Source: a virus. From it: 35,168 bases of DNA. This document shows positions 22,933-34,753 of this stretch, one piece after another. Each line of letters opens with the position of its first letter. Position 1 is the first letter of the stretch. The position numbers were made by a program, and so were the translations under genes. The notes beneath the pieces were generated by a model. It made no database searches. It was not told the origin of the DNA and saw only the letters and a list, made by a program, of their open reading frames with translations. The stretch covers positions 1 through 35,168 of the IMG/VR virus record IMGVR_UViG_3300037961_000553; one strand, written 5' to 3'.

Positions 22933-24228
22933 ATGGCTACTATATCGATAGCAGATAATGATGCGAGAAAGCAATATACGCAAGCTGTAGCTGGTACTGA
23001 CACAGCTTCGGGTAGTGAAACTACGCTTACTATAGACTTTCCCTTTTTTAGTTTAGATGACATAAATGTTATTGTTACTAGTACATCGGGTGTGGATACT
23101 ACGCTTAGCCGAGGAACTGGCACAGGAACTTTTGCGGTTACAGGAGTTGCTGTTGATGATGGTTTCTCTGGCGGTGATGTTATTTTTGCTGATACTTATC
23201 CTAGTAATACTAAGTTCACTATATTTCGTGACATTACAGTAGAAAGAACAACAGATTTTCCTACTTCTGGGCCTTTCAATGTATCTGCTTTAAATACTGA
23301 GCTAGACAAGATTTTTGCTATTGAGCAAGAACTTGAAACAAAAGTTGGACGTACTATGAAGCTTGCTGATTCCGATACAGCAGCTTCTCTAACTTTACCT
23401 AACCTTGATACAAGAAAAGGCACTACTTTGGCTTTTAATGCTACAAGTGGATTGCCAGAAGCTGGGCCTAGTATAGCAAGTGTTGGTACTGTTAGCGCAA
23501 ACGTAGCAAACATTAATACAGTAGCTGGGATATCTGCCAATGTCACAACGGTGGCTGGAAATAATTCTAATGTTACTACTGTGGCTGGCATTTCAAGTAA
23601 TATCACCACTGTAGCTGGGATAGCCTCTAATGTAACAACAGTAGCAAATAACATAACAGCTATTGGTGCTGCTGCTGACAATGCAACTAAAGCACAGAAC
23701 TACGCTACAAAAGTAGATGGGCCGATACCTAGCACCTCTGACTTTTCTGCAAAAGCACAGGCTGTTGGTGGTACAGGAGTTACATCTGTAACAGGTTCTG
23801 CAAGAGAGTGGGCAATAGGTGGTGGGTCATCACCAAACGCTACAGCTGCTGTGGATAGTAGTGGTGAGTTTAGCGCAAAGGGCTATGCTGTAGGCTCACT
23901 TAACAGGGGTTCTGCTGGCGCACACTCAGCAAAAGATTGGGCTTCTTATGTAGATGGCAATAATACTGTTGATGGTACATTTTACTCTGCTAAATATTAT
24001 GCAGAATTAGCTGAATCTTATGTTGATACTTTCGATGATAGGTATCTTGGCGCTAAATCATCTGATCCTACTCTTGATAATGACAGTCAGGCATTAACAG
24101 ATGGAGCATTATATTTTGATACATCAAGCAATAAACTTAAGGTTTATGACCTTGGAAACACACAATGGATAGCCATCGAAGCAGGAACAACTGCTGGCTT
24201 TGCTATCGCAATGGCCATAGCTTTATAG
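22933..24228 (+). CDS. Tail fibre protein with T7 gp17-like N-terminus
   Basis: This is the main fibre attached to the tail nozzle. Residues 1-150 are the conserved T7-fibre anchoring domain (QYTQAVAGTDT, then TLTIDFPFFSLDDINVIV, then FTIFRDITVERTTDFPTSGP, then LNTELDKIFAIEQELETK). A shaft of five 10-residue repeats follows (about 190-239), then Ala/Ser/Gly blocks with AREWAIGG and SAKDWASYVDG, typical of these fibres. The C-terminus is short, with no obvious receptor domain. Other adhesins downstream probably supply host recognition. AAAGGA lies 12 bases upstream of the start, a little far. Confidence 0.92.
   Translation: MATISIADNDARKQYTQAVAGTDTASGSETTLTIDFPFFSLDDINVIVTSTSGVDTTLSRGTGTGTFAVTGVAVDDGFSGGDVIFADTYPSNTKFTIFRDITVERTTDFPTSGPFNVSALNTELDKIFAIEQELETKVGRTMKLADSDTAASLTLPNLDTRKGTTLAFNATSGLPEAGPSIASVGTVSANVANINTVAGISANVTTVAGNNSNVTTVAGISSNITTVAGIASNVTTVANNITAIGAAADNATKAQNYATKVDGPIPSTSDFSAKAQAVGGTGVTSVTGSAREWAIGGGSSPNATAAVDSSGEFSAKGYAVGSLNRGSAGAHSAKDWASYVDGNNTVDGTFYSAKYYAELAESYVDTFDDRYLGAKSSDPTLDNDSQALTDGALYFDTSSNKLKVYDLGNTQWIAIEAGTTAGFAIAMAIAL
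23500..23649 (+). repeat. Five 30-bp coding repeats in the tail-fibre shaft
   Basis: Five consecutive units of ten residues with consensus I-S-S-N-V-T-T-V-A-G read in frame at 23500, 23530, 23560, 23590 and 23620. The codons vary more than the residues, so the repeat is old and selected at protein level. Such units usually form a trimeric beta or coiled shaft. Confidence 0.85.
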
Positions 24229-24237
24229 GAGATTGAG

Positions 24238-24903
24238 ATGGCACAAAACTTCCGTAGATACAAACTAACAGGTGTTGGGTCTACCGCACAGGATATACCT
24301 GATGGTTCTGACTTTGACAGTTTTGACACGATTGTTGGCATACACATGGCAAATACAAATGCCAATGCAATAACGGTGGATGCATTTATAACAACTGGAG
24401 CAACTGACAGAGGTGCTGGTGATTATTTCACTTATGCTGTTACAGTAAGCGGTGGTGCTTTCCTTTTGGATGGCGTTACTAAGCCAGCCCTAACATTGTA
24501 TAGAGGTTTTACATATACATTTGACCAGTCTGATGGCACAAACTCAGGGCATCAGATTGCGTTTAAGCAAGGGGCTGCTGGTTCTGCTTATACAACAGGT
24601 GTAACAACTACAGGCACACTAGGTCAGGCTGGGGCAAAGACAACTATAGCTATCACAGATACAACACCAGATGCACTGTATTATTATTGTACTACGCATG
24701 GCAATAGCATGGGCAATGACATTACAATCGACAGCGCACACTATCTTATTAAAGATGCGCCTATTGCTGCTGGCGGTGCGTTACAGTTGCTTGATGGCGG
24801 TGCAAAGTTTGTTGTGCAATCTGGTGACAGGTTGTTTGTTCGCTCATCAACAGCAAGTTCTCTTGATGTTTGGGTTTCTGCTGTGGATGCAATTAGCACA
24901 TAG
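24238..24903 (+). CDS. Tail-region protein with an inserted cupredoxin-like domain (221 aa)
   Basis: The ends (MAQNFRRYKLTGVGSTAQDI and, near 178-198, AAGGALQLLDGGAKFVVQSGD) belong to a short phage protein, usually about 130 aa, found near tail fibres. Between about residues 61 and 166 sits an extra domain (LYRGFTYTFDQSDGTNSGHQ, then YYYCTTHGNSMGN) resembling cupredoxins. All four type-1 copper ligand types are present in order: His105, Cys151, His154 and Met158. This loop is C-x2-H-x3-M (amicyanin has C-x2-H-x2-M, plastocyanin C-x2-H-x4-M). Such domains occur in other marine phage and bacterial proteins, from memory. The ribosome site is AGGAG. Copper binding is not shown; the domain may be purely structural. 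Confidence 0.8.
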   Translation: MAQNFRRYKLTGVGSTAQDIPDGSDFDSFDTIVGIHMANTNANAITVDAFITTGATDRGAGDYFTYAVTVSGGAFLLDGVTKPALTLYRGFTYTFDQSDGTNSGHQIAFKQGAAGSAYTTGVTTTGTLGQAGAKTTIAITDTTPDALYYYCTTHGNSMGNDITIDSAHYLIKDAPIAAGGALQLLDGGAKFVVQSGDRLFVRSSTASSLDVWVSAVDAIST

Positions 24904-24910
24904 GTGACAC

Positions 24911-25708
24911 ATGGGTTATGTAGGTAATCAAACAACAAACAGTTACAGCAGTATGGATAAGCAGACCATCACTGGTAACGGTGGTGCAAGCTATACACTG
25001 ACACATTCTGTAGCCAATGCCCAAGAGATTGAGGTGTTTGTAAACAATGTGCGTCAAGAGCCAGGGGTTGCCTACACAGTGTCAGGCACTGCATTGACTA
25101 TGACAGGCAATGTTGCAAGCACTGATGACTTCTATGTAATCTATCAGGGCAAAGCATTGCAGACGACTGTGCCGCCTGATGATTCTGTTACAACAGCAAG
25201 GCTTGCTGATGATGCTGTGACAAGAGCAAAAATGGCAGATGATTTGTCTGGCACAAACTTAGCCATAGACACTACATCATCGACATTTAAAATGACTGAT
25301 TTATCTAGCAATGCTTTTTATAGAACTGGTACTTGGACAGTAACAGATGTTTCTGGAGACGGGTTATCACTTACTCAATCGGAAACAGCTCGATATGTTA
25401 GAATAGGCGATTTAGTTTATGTTAACTTTTATGTAACCTTTCCAACTTCTGGAGGTACTGGTATAACTACTAAACTAGGAGGTTTGCCATTTCCAGCTGC
25501 AACAGGTTATGGGTATCATTATTTAGCTGGCAGAATACAAGACTACACTGCGGCTGATGTTCGTGTTCAAATACAACATGGTGAATCTTGGGGCGTTCCA
25601 CAACAAAATAACACTGGTATGCTAAACTCTCAATTAGCGGTAAATCTGAGTGGTGTAGGCAGATATGTAATTATGAGCGGTTGTTATATAGCTCAATCAG
25701 GTACATAG
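24911..25708 (+). CDS. Tail fibre / adhesin with modular N-terminus (265 aa)
   Basis: Residues about 15-110 form a module common in marine phage fibres: QTITGNGGASYTLTHSVANA, then IEVFVNNVRQEPGVAYTV, then DSVTTARLADDAVTRAKMAD. This is thought to be an attachment or trimerisation segment. The rest, up to residue 265, is all-beta-looking and Gly/Thr-rich (YVRIGDLVYVNFYVTF), consistent with a receptor-binding tip. It follows the cupredoxin-containing gene by seven bases with an AGGTG site. The 271-aa protein at 27003 uses a related N-terminal plan. Confidence 0.8.
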   Translation: MGYVGNQTTNSYSSMDKQTITGNGGASYTLTHSVANAQEIEVFVNNVRQEPGVAYTVSGTALTMTGNVASTDDFYVIYQGKALQTTVPPDDSVTTARLADDAVTRAKMADDLSGTNLAIDTTSSTFKMTDLSSNAFYRTGTWTVTDVSGDGLSLTQSETARYVRIGDLVYVNFYVTFPTSGGTGITTKLGGLPFPAATGYGYHYLAGRIQDYTAADVRVQIQHGESWGVPQQNNTGMLNSQLAVNLSGVGRYVIMSGCYIAQSGT

Positions 25709-25722
25709 GGTAGGAGCAAGCA

Positions 25723-26829
25723 ATGGCATTATCAACGATACGCTCATCAGGTTTCAGGAATCTGATTATTAATGGTGCTATGCAAGTTTCCCAGAGAGGT
25801 ACTAGCTTTAGCTATGCACATGATGGCACAGCAGCAGCATATAATTTAGATAGATTCAAGTTTACTATGAGAACCTATGCAGATGAATATGATTGCACTG
25901 TTGCTCAAGTGACCGATGCACCTGATGGTTTTTCAAATTCTTTAAAACTGACAACAGGTACTGCTGAAAGTGCTGTTGGTTCAGATGAATATTATGTTCT
26001 TTTTCAAGGAATTGAAGCGCAAAACCTACAGCATTTACAACACGGCACATCAAATGCAAAAAGCATAACTGTATCTTTTTATGTTAAATCTTCAATAACA
26101 GGCACTTTTGGTTTTAGCATATATAAACCAGATAACACCGCACAAGTTATAGCAAAAACTTATACGATAAATAGTGCAAACACTTGGGAAAAAAAGACTA
26201 TCACAATAGAAGGCGATACAGGTCAATCTATTGATAATGATAATAACGGAGGAATGTATGTCTACTGGCTTATAGGGGCTGGTACAGACTTTAACAGTGG
26301 TGCTTCTACAACAACTTGGGCGAATTATGGAAGTGGCACAACATGGTTTCAAGCTAGTGCTACAAATAATGTTGTTACGACAGCAGGGGCAACATTCCAA
26401 TTAACAGGCGTACAGGTTGAAGTAGGTGACGCAACAGACTTTGAGCATAGATCATTTGATGATGAACTAGACAGGTGTAAAAGATATTACCAGAAATCTT
26501 TTGCTTATGAGACTGCACCAGCAAATGACATTCGTGGAAGCAGAGAAGCAGAAATGCCACCTAGCGATAGCGTAAGTTATGCAGGAGCAGTAGTGTTTTT
26601 AGAAAAAACAATGAGAGCTGTCCCTACCTGTGCTGCATACAACCCTCAAGCAGCCCCTGCTAATTCTGGGGCTTATGTTAATGATTTAGTAAATGGCACA
26701 GTAACAACCGAATATTCAGTGTCGTCTATTTATGCAGTATCTTCTAAAATTAGGTTTTATCTTAGTGTTGCCCCAACATTAGGTGGCAACCCATACGGAT
26801 GTAACTGGACAGCACAAGCGGAGTTGTAA
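25723..26829 (+). CDS. Tail fibre / carbohydrate-binding-like protein (368 aa)
   Basis: The opening FRNLIINGAMQVSQRGTSFS, then YNLDRFKF, is a hallmark of a phage and bacterial fibre family (N-x-x-I-N-G-x-M-x-x-x-Q-R-G-T...LDRW). A beta-sandwich of about 200 residues with SITVSFYVKSSITGTFGFSI resembles carbohydrate-binding modules. The stretch FQLTGVQVEVGDATDFEHRS closes the sandwich and CKRYYQKSF follows. It probably binds host surface glycans. The ribosome site is TAGGAG. The last part may vary between strains. Confidence 0.82.
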   Translation: MALSTIRSSGFRNLIINGAMQVSQRGTSFSYAHDGTAAAYNLDRFKFTMRTYADEYDCTVAQVTDAPDGFSNSLKLTTGTAESAVGSDEYYVLFQGIEAQNLQHLQHGTSNAKSITVSFYVKSSITGTFGFSIYKPDNTAQVIAKTYTINSANTWEKKTITIEGDTGQSIDNDNNGGMYVYWLIGAGTDFNSGASTTTWANYGSGTTWFQASATNNVVTTAGATFQLTGVQVEVGDATDFEHRSFDDELDRCKRYYQKSFAYETAPANDIRGSREAEMPPSDSVSYAGAVVFLEKTMRAVPTCAAYNPQAAPANSGAYVNDLVNGTVTTEYSVSSIYAVSSKIRFYLSVAPTLGGNPYGCNWTAQAEL

Positions 26830-27003
26830 ATGGATATTGAATCAGCCCAATATGGTGCAAATCAAGGGGTCAATGTTTGTGTTATTGTTACAAATAGAAA
26901 TGGCGAAAAGCTCTTTGTTCCTTTAGACCCAGACAATACAGACTACGCTGCCATTCTTGAATGGGCAAAAGAAGACGGCAACACAATACAGGATGCAGAC
27001 TAA
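26830..27003 (+). CDS. Small tail-region protein (57 aa)
   Basis: The ORF runs from ATG 26830, directly after the preceding TAA, to TAA 27001-27003, overlapping the next ATG. The pattern LFVPLDPDNTDYAAILEWAK, then EDGNTIQDAD, is that of a short protein seen beside fibre genes in many phages (VP-D--N-DY--YL-W--EGN). It may be an assembly factor or a small fibre component, and its function is not established. Confidence 0.8.
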   Translation: MDIESAQYGANQGVNVCVIVTNRNGEKLFVPLDPDNTDYAAILEWAKEDGNTIQDAD

Positions 27004-27818
27004 TGCCTTACATTGGAACACAGCCCCTGACAGGCCAGTTTAAAAAACTAGACGCAATCTCTGTAGTTAATGGTCAGCCAAATTACACGCTGAACTACAA
27101 CGGTACAGCCTACAAGCCAGCCACAGCTAATGCTTTGTTGGTCAGCGTCAACGGTGTGATACAGGCGGCTGGTGATGCCTACACGATTAGCGGATCAACA
27201 ATCACATTCACTGAGAACTTGGTTACTGGTGATGTGATAGACTTTATTATTGCGCTGGGTGATACAGGCTCTGCTGTGACGCCTGTGGATGGCAGTGTGA
27301 CCACAGCTAAGATTGCTGACGATGCTGTTACATCAGCAAAACTGGCAAGCGGTGCAGCTCAAGCTCCTGTTTCTGTTGCTGTGTTAAGTCATGTTACTGC
27401 TTACGATACTGGTGGGGGTGACTTGACATCAGGTGCTTACAGAACTCGCCCTTTAAATACTGAGGTTGACCCAGATAGCATTGTAACTTTGTCCAGCAAT
27501 CAATTTACATTAGTTGCTGGCACTTACACTATTGATTGGACTTGTGATGCTTACAAAGTAGACCATCACTGGTCACAAATTTATGATATTACTAATAGTG
27601 CAACTTTGATATTAGGAAGCGCATCATACGCTGGTTCTAGTGAGAACATAGGTGATGTAAGTTACGGTCATCATATTTTTACGATTACATCAACAACAAC
27701 TTATGAACTACAGCAGCAATCAACAACTACAAAAAATACCAACGGCATGGGTAATAGAACAAACGTATCAGGGAATAATTCGATTCACGCCTATTTAAAA
27801 ATAACAAAGTTAGCGTAG
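27003..27818 (+). CDS. Tail fibre / adhesin (271 aa)
   Basis: The N-terminus (MPYIGTQPLTGQFKKLDAIS) and next block (LLVSVNGVIQAAGDAYTISG), then GSVTTAKIADDAVTSAKLAS, form a widespread fibre adaptor module. The C-terminal 140 residues are a beta domain with THxW-like pieces (YKVDHHWSQIYDITNSATLI) that suggest a receptor-binding tip of the C1q/TNF-like or trimeric type. That assignment is uncertain. The frame opens upstream to 26961, but the ATG at 27003 in TAATG gives the family N-terminus. No separate ribosome site is obvious, so coupling is likely. Confidence 0.82.
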   Translation: MPYIGTQPLTGQFKKLDAISVVNGQPNYTLNYNGTAYKPATANALLVSVNGVIQAAGDAYTISGSTITFTENLVTGDVIDFIIALGDTGSAVTPVDGSVTTAKIADDAVTSAKLASGAAQAPVSVAVLSHVTAYDTGGGDLTSGAYRTRPLNTEVDPDSIVTLSSNQFTLVAGTYTIDWTCDAYKVDHHWSQIYDITNSATLILGSASYAGSSENIGDVSYGHHIFTITSTTTYELQQQSTTTKNTNGMGNRTNVSGNNSIHAYLKITKLA

Positions 27819-32753: not shown

Positions 32754-33219
32754 CCCTGGTCTTACAGGAGGCATAGCGTTTCTACACAACGATGTTGTAT
32801 TGGCGATACGAACACCTGTCATTAAAGTTCAGAAAAAAAATTATCTCAATGTAGGTGAGATTGTGTCATTGCTAATGAAGCATGACCCAGACCACATTTA
32901 TATTGAGAAACAACAAGCAATGCCGAGGCAAGGCGTAGCTAGTACGTTTCGTACTGGTTTTGGCTACGGTATTTACCTTGGCTTGATTATTGCATTAGGC
33001 ATCAAGCATACAGAGGTCACTGCTCGCCAATGGAAGAAAGACCTCTGTGTGCCTGCTGATAAGGATATGGCAAGAGGCATAGCAACAGAACTGTATCCGC
33101 ATGCCTCAAGCCAATGGAAGTTAAAATGTGAAGATGGAGTAGCTGAGTCTACTCTGATTGCTCACTGGGGGGCCAAGTTCCAAACGGATCAAAGCGTCCC
33201 TCAGAAAGAGCTTCGGTAA
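32737..33219 (+). CDS. RuvC-like Holliday junction resolvase
   Basis: This cuts four-way junctions and branched DNA before packaging. The RNase-H-like motifs are visible: GIDPGLTGG with Asp6, IYIEKQQAMP with Glu57, and EDGVAESTLIAHWG with Asp133 and Glu137 (the D-G-x-A-E-A type ending of phage RuvC). At 160 aa it is near E. coli RuvC (173). The frame is open to 32605, but the ATG at 32737, with GGAGG eight bases before it, gives the family N-terminus. It overlaps the regulator gene by 17 bases and the ParB-like gene tail to tail by 71. Confidence 0.9.
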   Translation: MICGIDPGLTGGIAFLHNDVVLAIRTPVIKVQKKNYLNVGEIVSLLMKHDPDHIYIEKQQAMPRQGVASTFRTGFGYGIYLGLIIALGIKHTEVTARQWKKDLCVPADKDMARGIATELYPHASSQWKLKCEDGVAESTLIAHWGAKFQTDQSVPQKELR

Positions 33220-34753
33220 TCTTCTCAACACGAGATGACTTAGTACCGCTTTTGGCGTTACCAAAGAGCCACTCTTCCATCTGGTCTAGCTGGTTGACCT
33301 TCCACTTGTTGACCCACGTTGTGTCTGGTTTGAACCAGTTTTGTAGGTTAAGCTTTTCGTTGAACCCTTCCATTGATTCAGACCTGAAGTCATAGATTGA
33401 TAAACCACGCAGACAACACGCCACAAACAGCTCATCAAGCTCTTTAGCTGGGAGGTTATAACAGTACATAAGTGGAGTAGTGTTGTCACTTTCATAAGCA
33501 GATTCACAAGCTGCGATGTGCCTACCGATAACATCTTCATTAGGTAAACTAGTGTAGCCATTTGGCTCTCCTTCTGCTGGAAAGATTCTTTGTGAGTCAC
33601 AATACACATGACCAATACGATTGACATGATTGTATGTGTAGCCAAGCTTACGATGGCATAGCAAGGATTTGAAAAACTTTACTTTGTCTATCTTGTTTGT
33701 TGACCACATCTCACGAAGTGTTGCATCAGCAAAGTAAGAATAAACCAAATCTTTTTGTGGATTGGAGAATGTAAGAGGCGTAATCTCTTCTTCTGCTTCT
33801 TCCATTTCTTTCTTGGCTTCAGTATCTTCTTTGATGTCCTTGAGTACCATGAGATGTGTATCAAGTGCGTAACGCATAGTGTTGTACGTCACAACCATAA
33901 TCATCTCTGATATGTCATAGTCTTCTTCATTGTAGACAGAGAGGCATCCCCTGAGTTCTGGCATGTCCCAGTGATACTGGTCTTTGGCATAGACAACATC
34001 ATAGTAGCCTTGCTGACGATAATCCTGACATACATTGAAGATATGTTCTTCTTGTAGTTTGTCGAATGCTTCACGATTGGTAATGAACTCTTCATCACCG
34101 AACAAGTCAGCTTCAATACCGAGGCTACTGCGATGTCTTTCAGTATCGAAAAGTGCAGCACTCATAGGAATCTTAGCTGATAGCATAGCTCTTCTGACTG
34201 ATTCTGGATGGAAATGTGTATTGTCTGCCAGAAACTCGTCTTGTTTCTCCTTTGTACCAAGCGTCAGAGCTTGTGCAGCACCCATAGTGAAGTCACCGTT
34301 ACGGAACATAGCCTTGGCGTTATCAGACAGCTCAGAGAGGCTTATACGCTGTTCTACCCACCGTTTGGTTTGACCGAAACGTGCAGCAACAGTATCAAAG
34401 TCTTCTTGACCATCGTTGCACAACGCCATGATGACATCACATTCATCGAGTGGGTGCATGTCTTCACGAATCATATTGGCATGGAGGCCAACTTCTGCAC
34501 TGTCTTCATCTATGACAATACAGTTGATAGGTGTTCCGCCTTTGCCTTTGTAGATAGTCTTGAGAGCATCGAGGCGTCTGTTACCATCGATAACGACATA
34601 GCCCTTGCCGTTGGGAGTTACGACAAGGTTATGCAGCAGACCACAAGACTGTATTGAGGCGCATAAGGCCTTAAACCCAGAGTCACTGGGCTTGACCTTA
34701 CGCACATTATTAGGGGAGTGCTTTAGCTCCTTTAGTTCAATTTGCGTCTGCAT
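33149..34753 (-). CDS. ParB-like DNA-binding protein (534 aa)
   Basis: The predicted DNA-binding protein has the ParB/Srx nucleotide-binding fold. Residues 5-100 show the ParB N-terminal pattern (KHSPNNVRKVKPSDSGFKAL, then VVIDGNRRLDALK, then MIREDMHPLDECDVI), and a KorB-type HTH follows (FDTVAARFGQTKRWVEQRIS, then LSDNAKAMFRNGD). The remaining 330 residues are acidic and unfamiliar. The start at 34753 has ACGGAG upstream and overlaps the preceding gene by 17 bases. With no partner ParA or polymerase seen, a role in replication, transcription or recombination is more likely than plasmid-like partition. Tail-to-tail overlap with the resolvase ends both genes. Confidence 0.85.
   Translation of the reverse strand: MQTQIELKELKHSPNNVRKVKPSDSGFKALCASIQSCGLLHNLVVTPNGKGYVVIDGNRRLDALKTIYKGKGGTPINCIVIDEDSAEVGLHANMIREDMHPLDECDVIMALCNDGQEDFDTVAARFGQTKRWVEQRISLSELSDNAKAMFRNGDFTMGAAQALTLGTKEKQDEFLADNTHFHPESVRRAMLSAKIPMSAALFDTERHRSSLGIEADLFGDEEFITNREAFDKLQEEHIFNVCQDYRQQGYYDVVYAKDQYHWDMPELRGCLSVYNEEDYDISEMIMVVTYNTMRYALDTHLMVLKDIKEDTEAKKEMEEAEEEITPLTFSNPQKDLVYSYFADATLREMWSTNKIDKVKFFKSLLCHRKLGYTYNHVNRIGHVYCDSQRIFPAEGEPNGYTSLPNEDVIGRHIAACESAYESDNTTPLMYCYNLPAKELDELFVACCLRGLSIYDFRSESMEGFNEKLNLQNWFKPDTTWVNKWKVNQLDQMEEWLFGNAKSGTKSSRVEKITEALSEGRFDPFGTWPPSEQSE

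Follow-up and report, generated by a model that had tools for sequence, protein, structure and literature searches.

An inserted domain in a short tail-region protein

The DNA analyzed here (35,168 nucleotides; hereafter the window) comes from IMG/VR virus record IMGVR_UViG_3300037961_000553 and has a podovirus-type gene order. Genes for the terminase, head–tail adaptor, major head protein, and tail proteins are followed by one for an internal virion protein with an endolysin domain. Next in this order is an ORF for a tail fiber-like protein of 431 aa (positions 22,933–24,228, + strand), which has PHROG tail fiber and tail protein matches, and then the ORF of interest (24,238–24,903, + strand). 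The latter begins with ATG, encodes 221 aa plus a stop codon, has full-length homologues in viral contigs, and is preceded by the sequence AGGAG (24,227–24,231, + strand), a likely ribosome binding site located 6 bases ahead of the ATG. Downstream, on the same strand, are genes for tail fiber-like proteins of 265 aa (24,911–25,708; PHROG 18673 tail fiber protein, E = 8.4e-16), 368 aa (25,723–26,829; PHROG 4492 tail fiber protein, E = 5.8e-50), and 285 aa (26,961–27,818; PHROG 18673 tail fiber protein, E = 3.3e-32). A megablast search found no near relative of the window among phage records.

Dozens of homologues of the 221-residue protein are only 111 aa long. In phmmer searches of fetched loci, these proteins match residues 1–57 and 167–221 of the window protein and have no counterpart to the residues between. 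Alignment places the insertion boundaries between Asp57 and His168, with the join at TD/HYLIK. The window protein thus consists of an N-terminal half (residues 1–57; 24,238–24,408) and a C-terminal half (residues 168–221; 24,739–24,900) that together account for the 111 aa of the uninserted form (57 + 54), and an inserted domain of 110 aa (residues 58–167; 24,409–24,738), all on the + strand. The first-pass annotation had proposed that a domain splits a short conserved phage protein at this site, which is borne out by the uninserted homologues; the extent that it assigned, 24,418–24,735 (residues 61–166), is correctly placed and slightly narrow. The same ORF is found at 99% identity in two other contigs (L002 and L003), and a diverged form of the same arrangement is present in approximately 25 more. 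Because the arrangement is shared in this way, the insertion is not an assembly artifact.

In a tree of the host halves, one branch (SH-aLRT of 95) parts 26 inserted from 49 uninserted proteins, so a single gain or loss of the domain suffices, although the trees rest on approximately 100 columns and their resolution is weak. One uninserted homologue (L056, 125 aa) is longer by 14 residues at the position of the insert (residues about 55–75), which shows that insertions are tolerated in this loop. The host protein is small and β-rich, is encoded in a phage tail fiber gene cluster, and carries the insert in a loop. Homologues of the 111-aa family, which also has BFVD matches, are annotated as virion structural proteins in HTVC035P and HMO-2011. 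Judged from gene order and from the annotation of these homologues, the window protein is probably part of the virion surface.

Predicted fold of the insert

The insert had been described in the first-pass annotation as cupredoxin-like, and structure prediction agrees with this description. Modeled alone with AlphaFold2 without templates, the domain has a pLDDT of 96.8 and a pTM of 0.89; within the model of the full protein, likewise made without templates, its pLDDT is about 82–96. When the full model was compared with the PDB using Foldseek, ranks 1–8 were occupied by rusticyanin. For the domain model, ranks 1–17 are all copper proteins of the cupredoxin fold (probability 0.99–1.00), among them Hyphomicrobium nitrite reductase, rusticyanin, small laccase, amicyanin, plastocyanin, and pseudoazurin. 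The best E value of these matches is 2.9e-4, and their TM-scores over the query are modest, at 0.50–0.60. The match of the modeled insert to cupredoxins is thus clear but distant. In contrast, sequence and profile searches of the PDB returned mainly nanobodies, which share a YYC motif in a β-sandwich, rather than cupredoxins. Homology to Ig domains was rejected as the explanation of these matches, since the structure searches disagree with it and neither the second His nor the Met of the insert has a counterpart in nanobodies.

Similarity to blue copper proteins at the level of sequence is slight. The isolated domain matches the Pfam family Copper-bind (PF00127) at positions 18–98 of 99 with 16.1 bits (E = 0.015), which is below the curated cut-off of 21.2 bits for membership in that family; RCC1 and other sub-threshold Pfam matches were disregarded. 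A profile of the domain aligned to 33 archaeal blue copper domains with an hhalign score of 36.8, compared with at most 18.9 in 60 column shuffles. With the ligand columns masked, the score falls to 16–18, the level of the shuffles. The sequence alone therefore supports the motif, whereas the assignment of the fold comes from structure prediction.

A conserved set of putative copper ligands

Four residues of the insert stand in the order used by type-1 copper sites. As read directly from the codons on the + strand, these are His105 (CAT, 24,550–24,552), Cys151 (TGT, 24,688–24,690), which is the sole Cys of the protein, His154 (CAT, 24,697–24,699), and the putative axial ligand Met158 (ATG, 24,709–24,711). 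Both this order and the ligand loop C-x2-H-x3-M are as first claimed. To determine how well the residues are kept without selecting for the ligands themselves, viral contigs were scanned with patterns taken from the strand that precedes His105. The analysis covered 163 distinct copies that extend over both domain ends; these copies are related, and counts among them are not independent events. The full set is retained in 157 of the 163, with His, Cys, and His accompanied by Met or, in one copy, by Gln, and the type-1 pattern His ... Cys-x(2-4)-His-x(2-4)-Met/Gln is present in order in the window and in the same number of relatives. Two copies with longer loops that the pattern script had misread, C-x2-H-x4-M and C-x4-H-x2-M (L179 and L278), were reassigned by eye. 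The replacement of Met by Gln occurs in L004, an inserted form; stellacyanin likewise has Gln in place of Met.

The frequent loss of Cys or His that would speak against a metal site was not seen among these homologues. Ligands are missing from six of the 163 copies, a number that is an undercount because the profile used for extraction contains the ligand columns. In four of the six, His105, the Cys, and the second His are all gone; the other two, nearly identical to each other, lack the Cys and the second His. No copy has lost just one of the three, and the Cys and the second His always disappear together. The six ligand-less domains are phage copies (L181, L183, L184, the second domain of L185, L295, and L302), and several of them have long branches in the domain tree, a pattern that relaxed constraint would produce. 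In one of the scans with an upstream pattern, His105, Cys151, and the second His are present in every complete copy, and the Met in 58 of 59. As the scan pattern lies upstream of all four residues, their retention is not a product of chance.

The spacing of the ligand loop varies among copies while the ligand residues stay. The commonest loop is C-x2-H-x2-M, which most copies have in common with amicyanin, and the residue that follows the first His is usually Pro. An unusual loop, CAAPHTGM (C-x3-H-x2-M), is found in two inserted forms (L094 and L126) whose close relatives L093 and L132 have C-x2-H-x2-M; the metal loop of these two forms has been altered locally or exchanged. Exactly one Cys is present per domain in 155 of the 163 copies, and a disulfide role for Cys151 was rejected on this ground.

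The pattern of retention bears on whether a metal is bound at all. The domain could be a stable β-sandwich that serves for display only, a metal-free part of the virion in which the His/Cys/His/Met set is a legacy of a cellular blue copper protein or is held by folding constraints. Ligand-less copies in cyanophage structural proteins (L181, L183, L184, and L185) indicate that the fold does not need the ligands, and phages are assembled in the cytoplasm, where there is little access to copper. However, the ligands have been kept across wide divergence and changes of loop length, and where lost they were lost together, while an unused site left to drift would often lose its residues one at a time. 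A metal-free role is for these reasons considered unlikely. A related alternative concerns the identity of the metal: the metal in the site may be zinc, or exclusively Cu(I), and its role structural. Ligand conservation by itself does not name a metal, and cupredoxin sites accept both Zn and Cu(I) in vitro. Nevertheless, the order His-Cys-His-Met/Gln in a cupredoxin fold is the signature of type-1 copper, and zinc sites seldom use Met, which makes a metal other than type-1 copper improbable. Copper binding by the window domain is the probable state of the site, as judged from its residues and predicted fold.

Distribution of the domain in phages and archaea

The inserted domain of the window belongs to a larger family, a widespread structural-protein domain of marine phages. 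A tblastn search with a related copy gave 583 locations spread over 356 phage records, most of them from Synechococcus and Prochlorococcus phages, with pelagiphage and methylophage also represented. Annotations of the proteins concerned include tail fiber, virion structural protein, baseplate wedge tail fiber connector, and hypothetical. The phage relatives are located in fibers, gp7, and gp9, and tandem copies are present in fibers; the cultured Synechococcus phages Bellamy and S-B68 carry intact copies. By sequence and by BFVD structure, the domain in the cyanophage fiber, gp7, and gp9 proteins (within PHROGs 30742, 677, 708, 693, and 6005) is the same as that of the window. The cyanophage copies are terminal, internal, or tandem in large proteins and some have no ligands, whereas the window copy splits a 111-aa protein and has the full set.

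Thirteen relatives were found in cellular genomes. Nearly all come from metagenome-assembled genomes (MAGs) or single cells of marine Euryarchaeota of the Group II type, and one belongs to a MAG labeled Acidiferrobacter. The archaeal copies (L159–L171) share 44–49% identity with the window domain, and all of the ligands are intact wherever the copy is complete. Most of these copies form the C-terminal domain of a protein that begins with a lipobox-like sequence (LSGC, LAGC) and contains long collagen-like G-x-y repeats. Unlike the window protein, a probable virion component, these are cellular rather than virion proteins and are apparently surface-tethered.

Divergence and exchange of the insert

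In several close pairs of inserted proteins, the insert has changed more rapidly than the two host halves. Between the window and L004, the inserts are 79% identical and the host halves 100% and 98%; between L093 and L121, the corresponding values are 68%, 98%, and 100%. Faster divergence of the insert was not seen in the pairs L009/L101 and L007/L084. For three inserted forms (L104, L112, and L115), the domain tree conflicts with the host tree. This conflict, together with the unlike domains carried by the near-identical host halves of L093 and L121, points to domain exchange, and the insert thus seems, from these sequence comparisons, to have been exchanged between phages.

Relation to known copper and iron proteins

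Rusticyanin, amicyanin, plastocyanin, and pseudoazurin resemble the insert in predicted fold and in the way His, Cys, His, and Met are ordered and roughly spaced, with a weak PF00127 match. The insert differs from these blue copper proteins in scoring below the Pfam cut-off, in its location inside phage structural proteins, in the C-x2-H-x3-M loop of the window, and in the Pro that usually follows the first His across copies. Both the cupredoxin fold and its site are known; what is undescribed in the open-licence papers searched is their use as a recurrent domain of the phage tail region. Nothing relevant on cupredoxins or blue copper proteins in phage virions, fibers, or baseplates was found in open-licence PMC papers.

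In the literature found, the metal that has been proposed on phage tails is iron. For tail fibers with HxH motifs (T4 gp37 and alterophage R22Y), iron on the adsorption apparatus was proposed (PMC11705849). The window domain would likewise place a metal site on this apparatus, but the motif and the fold differ from those of the HxH fibers, as probably does the metal. The HxH motif is absent from the window protein, in which His occurs only at positions 36, 105, 154, and 168.

Proposed role of the metal site

Our preferred reading is that the insert is a genuine cupredoxin of the type-1-copper kind, used as an exposed, metal-stabilized module of the adsorption apparatus; we regard this reading, taken as a whole, as having about an even chance of being correct. 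Exposure and a part in adsorption are suggested by the position of the gene among tail fiber genes, the occurrence of relatives in fibers, gp7, and gp9, and the fast divergence of the insert in several close pairs. Since assembly takes place in the metal-poor cytoplasm, copper would be taken up from seawater or from the lysing host. The bound metal would mainly lock the ligand loop and the β-sandwich, giving a rigid exposed module that is active in adsorption. In a domain with one Cys, copper could provide stability where a disulfide cannot, while the remaining surface diversifies. A structural lock of this kind is favored because the structural proteins that carry the domain are unrelated and have no redox partner in common, because there is no disulfide, and because the insert outpaces the divergence of the host protein in several close pairs. 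Counting against it, a few ligand-less copies persist, and the fold can thus be kept without the site.

Two other uses of bound copper were considered. The domain may be redox-active, cycling between Cu(I) and Cu(II) to pass electrons to a surface or periplasmic protein of the host or to quench reactive oxygen at the virion. This proposal fits the ligand set and the nearest folds, which are electron-transfer proteins (rusticyanin, amicyanin, and plastocyanin). It is nonetheless improbable in our view, as the domain is carried by many unrelated structural proteins, a shared redox partner was not seen in the neighborhood, and the tandem copies in fibers better suit a structural role. Alternatively, copper-loaded fiber or baseplate domains might act as a Trojan horse, with docking achieved through recognition by a copper-uptake receptor or a copper-binding surface protein of the host. 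Type-1 copper, being bound tightly and mostly buried, would make poor bait, and the hosts span unrelated bacteria. Even with the gene context, the spread of the family in adsorption proteins, and the analogous iron proposal for HxH tail fibers (PMC11705849) in its favor, we consider docking by this route unlikely.

A family of structural domains in which putative type-1 copper ligands are conserved together is present in hundreds of sequenced marine phages, where the annotations read simply tail, structural, or hypothetical protein, and this result suggests that many ocean virions may carry copper sites. A broader proposal, which we put forward tentatively and consider somewhat less likely than its opposite, is that marine tailed phages carry virion copper by means of a widespread cupredoxin family held in common with marine Group II-type archaea. 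Copper on fibers and baseplates would then influence how virions adsorb, how stable the particles are, or which redox reactions take place at the cell surface, and virions would represent a pool of bound copper in seawater that has gone uncounted. If true, phage adsorption would be linked to trace-metal chemistry. The questions of whether ocean virions hold copper and whether infection depends on it are thereby made testable.

Finally, elsewhere in this podovirus-type genome, a 534-aa ORF on the − strand (33,149–34,753) matches ParB-like partition proteins in PHROGs.
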